Shown: piece by piece, positions 31,007 to 35,777 of the stretch
Layout: the number at the start of each line of letters is the position of its first letter
How positions within the stretch are numbered: the stretch's first letter is position 1
Assembly (NCBI RefSeq): GCF_000147075.1
Contig: NC_014484.1
Location: forward strand, 248,001 to 312,000
Source: Spirochaeta thermophila DSM 6192
GTDB taxonomy: Bacteria > Spirochaetota > Spirochaetia > Winmispirales > Winmispiraceae
DNA: 64,000 bases
Direction of reading: 5' to 3'
Made by a program: the position numbers and the translations under genes
Notes under the pieces: model-generated
Told to the model about the DNA's origin: nothing
The model's database searches: none
Seen by the model: only the letters and a program-made list of their open reading frames with translations

Positions 31007-32029
31007 TCAGGGCTGGATCCGGTCTTCCAGGGTCTCGAGGATGTCCTCGAGTTCGCGGAGTCCGTGTGTCATGCGTTGCTTCGTCTCTTGGAAGGAGTGG
31101 AGGGTGCGTTCCTGGAGGGAGACCAGCTCCTCCTTGAGCGTCCGGAGGCGCGAGGTGAGGCTGCCCCTCTCTCCTTCGAGGGTGGGGCGCGCGAGGTCTT
31201 CCTCGAGCTGGAGGATCCGATCGAGGAGTTCCTGGAGCCGGGTCTTGAGGGGGGAGAGGGTCCGTTCGGGGGTGAGGGTGGTGGTCGTCTTGAGGGTGGT
31301 GGTGAGGGTGGTGACGGCCGAGGAGATGGAGGTGGTGTGCTCCGCCGTGGCCTCGGCGAGTTTCTTGATCTCGTCCGCCACCACCGAGAAGCCCCTTCCT
31401 GCTTCGCCTGCGTGGGCGGCCTCGATGGCTGCGTTGAGGGCGAGGATGTTGATGCGTTCCGAGATCTCGTCTATGGCCTGGAGGAACTCCTCCACTTCGT
31501 GGGTAGTGGTCTGGACGGTCTCCATGTGGAGGAGGGCCTCTTCCGCTTCGTCTTCGTAGCGTTCCAGGTCTTCGAGGAGCGACCGGATGGTCTCGGTGAG
31601 GTGCTGGAGTGAGGAGGGGGGGCGGGAGGGGGAGGGTGCAGAGATCTCTGCGAGTGCGGTGTCGATGGAGGAGAGGAGGGCTTCGAGCCGGGGGGGCGGG
31701 GTGAGGGATTCTACGGCCTTGAGGAGCGAACTCAGGACTTCCCGTTGCCGCTCAAGGAGCGGGGTGAGGGATGCGAGGTGGAGGGTGGCGGGTAGGGTCG
31801 GAGGAGCGGTGGGGGCGGGTGTCGGGGGTTCCGGGATGGGGTGTGGAGGCGTGGTGGGGGGTTCAGGGGGAGTGGAGGAGGGCGGTGCGGAGGGGGGCTC
31901 AGGGGGTGAGGGTTCCTCCGTGGACGGGGGGACGGGCTGTGGAATGGAGGAGGGCTCGGGTTCGCGTTCGGGGGAGCGGCGGTCGAGGATGCCGGATGTG
32001 CGCGCTGTTCCCTCCGCCCGGTCCGCCAT
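31007..32029 (-). CDS. chemoreceptor signalling half with proline-rich linker (frameshifted from the 32976 gene)
   Basis: Reading frame of 340 residues starting at an ATG with no ribosome site, inside the preceding frame. Residues about 20-80 are a striking Pro/Ser/Thr/Glu-rich stretch, followed by a coiled coil and the receptor tip [20 protein letters not shown] with [18 protein letters not shown]. There is no membrane segment in this frame. The frame upstream encodes a Cache domain and two membrane helices, and stops being protein-like exactly where this one begins, so the two are best read as one receptor interrupted by a frameshift near 32000-32040, or joined by ribosomal slippage. A separately translated soluble signalling module is a third option. 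Confidence 0.6.
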
Positions 32030-32976
32030 CGCAGGAAGGGGAGGGTGATGAGCACGAGAGACACGGAGAGGACGAGTGGGAGGCGGTCGGCGGGTGTGGG
32101 GGTGAGGGGGAGGACGGCGACGAGGGTGCGGCCGTCGGGGAGGGGAGAGGCCGCGATGAGCTGGCCGTGCACTTCACGAGGGCTTGTCAAGGCCTCCTGG
32201 ATGAGGGCTCGACGCTCCTCCGGGGAGAGGGAGGAGAGGATGGGGACCCCCTCCACTTCCCCGTCGGGGGAGAGGAGGGCGAGGCGGATTCCTTCGGTGT
32301 CCGACTGGAGGGGGAGGGCCCGGCGGGCTTCTTCGAGGAGGCGCTCCCACCTCCTCTCGTGAGTGTCCATGTACTCCGAGGTGCCGAGGACCCAGCCCCA
32401 CGGCTCGAAGAGCCTCGCATATCCCCACTTCTTCACCGGTTCCCCTCCGGAGAGGTGGGGGAAGTAGTACTCCTGGAAGCTCTCTCCACGGGCCTTTGCG
32501 GTGTCGATCATCTGTTTCACATAGGGGGTGCCGGTGATGTCGGTGAGGTTCTCCCTGTCGAGTCCCTCCTGCTCCGGGTTGGGCGGATTCACCAGGGAGA
32601 TGTAGGTGACGGTGTCTGCGAAGAAGTAGCCTTCGTCCTCGTAACGGATGTTCCGGAGAGCCTCCCGGGCCCTCCGTTGGGCCTCCTTGGTGGAGAGGAG
32701 ACGGACACGGGAGAGTTCATGGTAGGTCTCCACGATGGCGAGACCTATACTGAGCCGTTTCTCGAGTTCGGATCTGATCTCTTCCTTCTCTTCTCGTATG
32801 CGGGCCTCTACGCTCTGGTAGTGACGGGTGTACAGGTCGGAGATCCGCCGGATCTCGGACCGGAGCAGGGTTTCTGCGTGATCGATGTCCTGTTGCGGGA
32901 ACGACAAGGTGAGCAGGAAAGGAAAGGCTGCGAGGATGATGAGATAGAGAGGGAAGAGGATTCTGTACCACTTCAT
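31732..32976 (-). CDS. chemoreceptor sensor half (sCache domain and two membrane helices), frame disrupted
   Basis: N-terminal membrane helix ([19 protein letters not shown]), periplasmic sCache_2-type domain (about residues 45-220) with [20 protein letters not shown] and [20 protein letters not shown], which bind small carboxylates or similar ligands in known members, then a second helix ([19 protein letters not shown]) and a basic stop-transfer RTGRREQR. After this the frame runs 100 residues of Pro/His-rich sequence with no family character to a stop at 31732, while the chemoreceptor signalling domain continues in another frame. ATG at 32976 has TAGG ahead; TATACT (about 12 bases upstream of the ATG) gives a very short leader. 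Confidence 0.65.
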
Positions 32977-33035
32977 CCTACCTACCATAGTATAGAGGAC
33001 TCCGGTGGCGTGCAAGCGTTTTTTGGGTGGGTTCG

Positions 33036-33064: not shown

Positions 33065-33074
33065 ATAGGTGCAC

Positions 33075-35777
33075 ATGAAAGGTGTGTCCTGTGTCCTGCT
33101 CCTCTCCCTTGTCGTGGGGATCCTGAGCGGGGAGGAGGGGTTCGTCCTTCCCCATGAGCTTTCCTCGGGATGGACCCTCGTCCCCCTCTTCCCGGGTGGT
33201 GGACCCCAGGATGTCTCGCTTCCCCTCGATTATCGACCCGCCGGACCGCGGGGAGAGATCCTCCTCCGCTGTACGTTCACCCTCCCCTCGTCTCCCACGG
33301 AGCCGGTGTACCTCCTGGTGGATCGTCTTCCGGGAGCCTACCGCTACATCTTGAACGGCGTGTTCCTCGACGAAGAGGGAGGGTTCCCTCCACGGTTCGC
33401 CCATTCGAGGAGGGATATCTATGTGCGGTACATCCCCCCCATGCAGCTCAGGGAGGAGAACGAGCTCGTCATCGTGGCCTATGAGGAGAGGAGCAGGATA
33501 CGTATCCGACGCGTGGCCCTCGTGGACGAGAGGGAAGCCTTCCTTGTGCGGAACGTGCGCAATGTCCTCAACGCCCGCATCTACGGGTATTTCGCGTTCC
33601 TGAGTCTCTTCGTCTCTCTCTACTTCTTCGGTCTCTACGCGAACCGGAGGAGGGAGCGGGGGTTCTTCTTCTATGCGGTGAGCAATCTGGGGATCGCCCT
33701 CTATTTCGTGCGCATGGCATCCCCCCTCGCCTTTCTGCCCCCCGTCCTCAGCTACTCGGTCTCGAAGGCTGGGCTCATCGTCTCCCTGGGATATCTGTTC
33801 GTCTTCTATTTCGAATTCTTCTCGCTCCGGGGTTCGGATCGTCTCAAACGGTATGTCCTCACCCTCGTTTGGGTGGTGGGAGGGTTCATGGTGCTCGTGC
33901 CTCAGACCCTCCAGGATGCGGAACGCGTGTTCGCGTCATCCCTCGTGCTCGGGTTCGCCTTCCTCGTGTCATACGTGGTAATAAGTATCATCATCTTCCG
34001 GCATGGAGCACGGGAAGGGGGATTCCTCCTCATCGGTACCGGTCTCCTCGTGCTCCTGGGAGGGCACGATATCGTCTACAAGGTGATGGGTCGGGAACCG
34101 TTCGTATGGCTCCAGGGGATAGGGATCTTCATCTTCGAGGCCATGATCTTCATCACGCTCGCTTCGCGCACCATGCGGGTGTACGCGAGGCTCGAGGAGT
34201 ACTCCACGGGGATCGAAGAGGAGGTGGCGCGGAGGACCCGGGAGCTCAGAGAGGCGAACCGGCTCCTCGAGAAGGCGAACCGGGCCAAGAGCGAGTTCCT
34301 CGCCAACGTGAGCCACGAGATGCGGACCCCGCTCCACGCGATCATGGGTTTCGCCGAGGCCCTCAAGGGAGAGCAGGATCCGAGGGAGCGTGAGGGACAC
34401 CTCCAGCTCCTGCTCTCGGAGGCTCAGCGTCTCAAGGTGCTCATCGACGAGATCCTGGACGTGGAGAAGATGGAGCAGGGGAAGCTCACGCTCGATGAGA
34501 GTCCGTTCAACCTCCACGAGGTGGTGGGGTATGTGTGCAGGGTGATGGAGGAGAATGCGCGAAGGAAGGGGCTCTCGTTCTCTTTCGAGATAGAGGACGG
34601 TGTGCCCGTGTGGGTGGTGGGGGATCCGTTCAGGTTGCAACAGGTGATCATGAACCTCGTGGGGAATGCGGTGAAGTTCACCGAGGAGGGGGGGGTGCGG
34701 GTGAGGGTGGGGTGTGTGGAGGAGGGGGAAGGGCGTTGGATCGAGGTCGAGGTGCGGGATACGGGGATAGGGATACCGGAGGAGATGCGGGAGAAGGTCT
34801 TCGAGAGTTTCGTCCAGGCAGATACGAGCACTACCCGGCGGTACGGTGGGTCGGGATTGGGGATGACGATCGCGCGGGAGCTCGTGCGGCTCATGGGAGG
34901 GGACGTATGGCTCGAGAGCGAGGTGGGAAAGGGGACGAGGGTGTGGTTCAGGATCCCCTGTGTGGAGGCGATGGCCGGGGTGGAGGCGGAAGGTGGAGCC
35001 CTGGAGGAGGGGACGAGGGGAGTGCTGGAGGGCCACCGCATCCTGGTGGTCGAGGACTACATGCCCAACCAGAAGATCGTCTCCCTCGTGCTCTCGGAGG
35101 CGGGGGCCGAGGTGGAGGTGGCGGTGAACGGGAGAGAGGCGCTGGAGAAGGTGGCGCAGGGACGGTACGACCTGGTGCTCATGGATGTCCACATGCCGGT
35201 GATGGACGGACTGGAGGCCACGCGGCGTATCAGGGCCCTGGTGGGAGGGGATCTCCCCATCGTGGGGCTCACGGCCGATGCCTACCGGGAGGACGTGCGG
35301 CGGTGCAGGGAGGCGGGGATGGACGGGGTCCTCATAAAACCGATCCGCCGGAAGGAGATGGTCGAGGAGGTGCGGCGGCTGCTCTCGGGACGCGGGGGAT
35401 CGGAGGGGGAGGAGGACGCCCGGGAAGGGATCGGGGCGTTCGTGGAGGAGTTCGGCGATCTCCGGGAACGGGCCTTCGAGATACTGGAAGGATTCCTGGA
35501 TGAGGCGGAGCGCCAGTGGGAGAGGATCGAAGGTGCCTGGGAAGGGCGGGATTGGGAGGCCCTCCACCGGGAGGTGCACGCCCTCAAGGGGGGAGCGGCC
35601 AACCTCTACGCCCGGTCGCTCCGGGACGCGGCCCTCGCGGCACAGGAGGCGGCGAGGCAGCACGACGAGGGAAGGATGCCCGACCTACTCGATGCGGTAC
35701 GGAGGGAGCTCTCCCGTCTCCAGGAGGAGATCAGGACGTTTCTCGCAGGGCGCGGCGGTGGAGAGCCGGGAGGATGA
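33075..35777 (+). CDS. hybrid sensor histidine kinase (7TMR-DISM, HisKA, HATPase, REC, HPt)
   Basis: A 900-residue phosphorelay protein. Signal peptide (about 1-20), an extracytoplasmic jelly-roll-like 7TMR-DISM domain (about 25-165), seven membrane helices (about 170-370), a short coiled coil, HisKA with phospho-His414 in NVSHEMRTPL, HATPase with NLVGNAVKF, RDTGIGIP and GGSGLGMTIA, a receiver with phospho-Asp704 in LVLMDVHMP, and a C-terminal HPt with His835 in VHALKGGAANL. All relay residues are present, so a four-step relay to an unlinked regulator is expected. The ligand of the DISM domain is usually a carbohydrate. Its 3' end overlaps the convergent transporter gene by 47 bases. Confidence 0.92.
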   Translation: MKGVSCVLLLSLVVGILSGEEGFVLPHELSSGWTLVPLFPGGGPQDVSLPLDYRPAGPRGEILLRCTFTLPSSPTEPVYLLVDRLPGAYRYILNGVFLDEEGGFPPRFAHSRRDIYVRYIPPMQLREENELVIVAYEERSRIRIRRVALVDEREAFLVRNVRNVLNARIYGYFAFLSLFVSLYFFGLYANRRRERGFFFYAVSNLGIALYFVRMASPLAFLPPVLSYSVSKAGLIVSLGYLFVFYFEFFSLRGSDRLKRYVLTLVWVVGGFMVLVPQTLQDAERVFASSLVLGFAFLVSYVVISIIIFRHGAREGGFLLIGTGLLVLLGGHDIVYKVMGREPFVWLQGIGIFIFEAMIFITLASRTMRVYARLEEYSTGIEEEVARRTRELREANRLLEKANRAKSEFLANVSHEMRTPLHAIMGFAEALKGEQDPREREGHLQLLLSEAQRLKVLIDEILDVEKMEQGKLTLDESPFNLHEVVGYVCRVMEENARRKGLSFSFEIEDGVPVWVVGDPFRLQQVIMNLVGNAVKFTEEGGVRVRVGCVEEGEGRWIEVEVRDTGIGIPEEMREKVFESFVQADTSTTRRYGGSGLGMTIARELVRLMGGDVWLESEVGKGTRVWFRIPCVEAMAGVEAEGGALEEGTRGVLEGHRILVVEDYMPNQKIVSLVLSEAGAEVEVAVNGREALEKVAQGRYDLVLMDVHMPVMDGLEATRRIRALVGGDLPIVGLTADAYREDVRRCREAGMDGVLIKPIRRKEMVEEVRRLLSGRGGSEGEEDAREGIGAFVEEFGDLRERAFEILEGFLDEAERQWERIEGAWEGRDWEALHREVHALKGGAANLYARSLRDAALAAQEAARQHDEGRMPDLLDAVRRELSRLQEEIRTFLAGRGGGEPGG

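Follow-up and report, generated by a model that had tools for sequence, protein, structure and literature searches.

Introduction

MCP chemoreceptors (PF00015) carry a signalling hairpin with a conserved tip and unite it with the sensor and membrane parts in a single chain; a sensor of the sCache_2 type (PF17200) is a periplasmic single Cache fold. A HAMP domain between the second membrane segment (TM2) and the signalling domain is usual in MCPs, though not universal. Two kinds of system in which a change of reading frame is part of normal expression can be recognised by what stands at the switch: programmed -1 frameshifting by an in-frame slippery heptamer with a stimulator, conserved in relatives, and a phase-variable gene by a long homopolymer or a short tandem repeat, with tract lengths that differ within a strain. 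In a recent frameshift pseudogene, the base is missing from the DNA of the cell itself.

Here we analyse a receptor locus in a 64,000-nucleotide window, positions 248001-312000 of the complete genome of Spirochaeta thermophila DSM 6192 (G000; 2,472,645 bases), and compare it with a same-genus genome (G001; 2,560,222 bases) and a same-family genome (G002). We consider it highly likely that the locus is one chemoreceptor gene whose indel-prone proline-rich linker is one net base out of length, through either a commonplace mutation or an error in sequencing.

Results

Two minus-strand frames of the window share the parts of a receptor between them: one encodes a Cache-domain sensor with two membrane segments, the other an MCP signalling domain. 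The first of these, the front frame, begins at an ATG at 32976, with an in-frame TTG upstream at 33015, ends at a stop at 31732, and matches the Pfam profiles dCache_2 (4.5e-33) and sCache_2 (PF17200, 5.7e-29), an assignment to the single periplasmic Cache fold that is made from sequence alone. Its in-frame part (32976-32021) comprises an N-terminal membrane segment, the Cache sensor and TM2, the membrane segments having been read by eye, and the sensor matches the sequences of the solved receptor sensor domains 5g4y (9.5e-22), 4k08, 2qhk and 4exo. The back frame (31007-32029, minus strand) has a Pfam MCPsignal match at residues 159-251 (8.4e-28) that spans 93 of the 172 positions of PF00015, and its signalling half (31007-31765) includes the hairpin with its conserved tip and shows phmmer similarity to 2ch7, 1qu7 and others. 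In a single-sequence AlphaFold2 model of this half (mean pLDDT 78.1, pTM 0.57), which we treat as weak evidence, residues 51-118 and 120-162 form long helices, and there are two more helices, 166-191 and 197-250. No further stops were found inside either half. The paper PMC10653840, in the portion available, concerns a CheW-type sensor and is not relevant to this receptor. Divergent from the receptor, with its start about 90 bases from the receptor ATG, lies a hybrid histidine kinase-like open reading frame (33069-35777, 902 aa), in which a membrane part, a kinase, a receiver and apparently an Hpt end were recognised by eye.

Both relatives carry the gene whole. The same-genus counterpart is one open frame of 657 codons from the matching ATG, with 95% identity in the sensor, and the same-family counterpart is one frame of 706 aa; sensor, membrane and signalling parts thus stand in one polypeptide in both, but not in the window as written. 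An earlier note on this DNA had described a receptor split over two frames and had asked for comparison with relatives: the split is confirmed by Pfam domains on separate minus-strand frames and by the alignment to G001, and the comparison, now made, finds the gene in a single frame in G001 and in G002. When the signalling half was searched against 148 genomes of the class, the hits in G001, G000 and G002 scored 475, 472 and 360 bits and all others at most 105 bits, so that the search yields three orthologues in all, of which only the one in the window is split. Within the 148 class genomes sampled, these scores suggest that receptors of this type occur in the family only. A scan of the genome contigs returned two distant MCPs only.

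The whole genes in the relatives bear directly on the idea that each of the two frames is a functional gene in its own right, the first for a sensor that lacks an output and the second for a soluble signalling protein initiated at the ATG at 32029 (32029-32027, minus strand). Both frames are open with possible starts and the signalling half is conserved, as this idea would have it, but the proposed start lies upstream of the switch and within the front frame, with no Shine-Dalgarno-like sequence before it; the G001 protein contains nothing that corresponds to the stretch between this ATG and the switch; and the gene is fused in both relatives. Since the locus is a single gene in G001 and in G002, we reject the reading as separate genes and consider it exceedingly improbable.

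The break was located by global DNA alignment of the window with the G001 gene, which contains four indels (+9, -1, -6 and -6 in the window), all within the proline-rich linker (31766-32020, minus strand). The +9 and both -6 changes keep the frame; the net -1 alone splits the gene, and the frame offset changes once. A separate semi-global alignment gives the same one-base gap, plus a second one-base gap in the last few bases that we take as an end effect. The alignment places the frame switch, where the window has one net base fewer than G001, within 31958-31980 (minus strand), at about 31970 and adjoining a run of five C; substitutions are also present in the immediate surroundings. This net -1 is present in the sequence of this strain and absent from both relatives carrying the gene. 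A single switch had been expected at 32000-32040; the singleness holds, and the position has to be moved 30-60 bases further on.

That all four indels fall within the linker indicates a tract that gains and loses bases over evolutionary time, and this would be in keeping with phase variation, in which slippage in the tract would leave the receptor on in some cells and off in others. The switch, however, adjoins no more than five C, and such runs are common: across the 64 kb of the window, 255 C/G runs are exactly five bases long and 92 are six to nine, which makes the one at the break unremarkable. No tandem array covers the site: the nearest begins at 32092, and none in the gene scores above 46. 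Of the four indels, only one disturbs the frame. With neither a long homopolymer nor a short tandem repeat at the switch, we judge phase variation very unlikely.

Selection has acted on both sides of the break. Between the window's genome and G001, dN/dS is 0.375 in the sensor, 0.30 in the signalling part and 0.134 in the hairpin-tip region, and on the two sides of the break substitutions at codon positions 1, 2 and 3 number 7, 7 and 14, and 15, 7 and 37; both measures place the constraint in the original frames. A signalling half under no selection since the two strains diverged would, by our estimate, show roughly twice the nonsynonymous changes. Purifying selection on both halves means that the break is recent, or exists in the assembly only.

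Such constraint would also be expected if programmed ribosomal frameshifting at the C-rich tract fused both halves into one protein, and the proline-rich tract with its adjoining run of five C could be read in the same way. Against this, both relatives carrying the gene read through without a shift, the zero frame at the switch reads GCT CCC CCG AAC, which is not an X XXY YYZ heptamer, and the 77 bases downstream fold no better than expected by chance (-11.1 kcal/mol, z 0.08), 98 of 200 shuffles folding at least as well. Lacking a slippery heptamer, a downstream structure and a counterpart in relatives at the switch, programmed frameshifting is rejected, and we give it almost no probability. 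The earlier note had listed sequencing error, real mutation, programmed frameshifting and phase variation and had chosen none of them; the whole genes in the relatives and the one-base difference favour the first pair and disfavour the second.

The linker itself was compared across the three genomes. In G001 it is proline-rich (40% of 83 residues), and in G002 it is polar and not proline-rich. Searches at E up to 0.1 gave no HAMP match between TM2 and the signalling domain in the two halves of the window or in the G001 or G002 copy. In the copies of all three genomes, a long low-complexity linker joins TM2 to a short signalling hairpin without a detectable HAMP; a sensor tethered to a short hairpin in this manner is a slightly unusual receptor layout. 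The C-rich linker is open in more than one frame, as had been described from the letters: the unused alternative frame in the G001 linker is open for 90 codons and the out-of-frame tail of the window for 79. When the codons of the G001 linker were shuffled (5000 shuffles), an alternative frame was open for at least 80 codons in 79% of shuffles for one shift (median 89) and in 33% for the other. Two open linker frames are therefore no more than chance would give, and C-rich codons account for proline being encoded in both frames.

We consider a recent inactivating mutation in the cell and an assembly error in the C-rich tract about equally likely as sources of the missing base. Genes written in two frames were counted over the first 800 kb of each genome, G000 against G001 and the reverse (hits of at least 80% identity; a first round covered 400 kb), which gave 3 of 488 in G000 and 10 of 475 in G001. 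There is thus no excess in the window's genome, and a generally error-rich assembly is rejected. On inspection, the three in G000 are an upstream-extension artefact in what we take from its sequence to be a UTP-glucose-1-phosphate uridylyltransferase gene, a gene with two G-run indels that is frame-ambiguous in both genomes, and the present receptor, leaving at most two genuine; nine of the ten in G001 were inspected, and several reflect larger sequence differences. The few splits in G000 argue against a generally error-prone assembly and not against one error, which is possible. Outside the window, the frames of G000:C1:336414-337284 and G001:C1:308319-309194 differ through two single-base differences at G runs.

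Across G000 there are 20 MCPsignal matches (18 separate frames by count); that of the split receptor lies in a 388-codon frame, and the other 19 (17 frames) lie in frames of at least 528 codons. In G001, the MCPsignal match at G001:C1:568125-568409 lies in a frame of just 253 codons and could belong to a soluble short receptor or to another truncated one.

Discussion

We propose that the locus is one chemoreceptor gene that is split in this sequence by a single net -1 change in the linker. Translated as written, it would yield a membrane sensor followed by a 79-residue out-of-frame proline-rich tail (31970-31732, minus strand, 79 codons from the switch to the front-frame stop) and no signalling domain. 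A receptor of this form would be unable to contact CheW/CheA, and the gene as written would be a null allele. From this we infer loss of receptor function.

On a broader reading, the GC-rich, disordered linker of this HAMP-less receptor would be a place where indels are frequent and tolerated. Those of non-triplet length would silence or restore the receptor from one strain to another, and the linker would serve chemotaxis as a contingency locus that operates slowly. We regard this as a very improbable extension of the data.

The main consequence is for annotation: the two open reading frames are to be recorded as one frameshifted chemoreceptor gene. Pending any resequencing result to the contrary, the receptor is to be counted as absent from this strain. 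Should the mutation prove real, the strain could be compared with its sister to learn which ligands the receptor detects; solved sCache relatives make short carboxylates a guess.

Set against described systems, the receptor resembles sCache_2 (PF17200) chemoreceptors in its sensor (sCache_2/dCache_2) and in its output (PF00015), and differs from them in having no HAMP match, a long low-complexity linker that is proline-rich only in the genus, a partial PF00015 match and a split gene. The split itself has its counterpart in the frameshifted genes of finished bacterial genomes, whether pseudogenes or indel errors: here as there, a single non-triplet indel in a low-complexity stretch separates the gene from an intact orthologue, and the locus shows no notable difference from that class.
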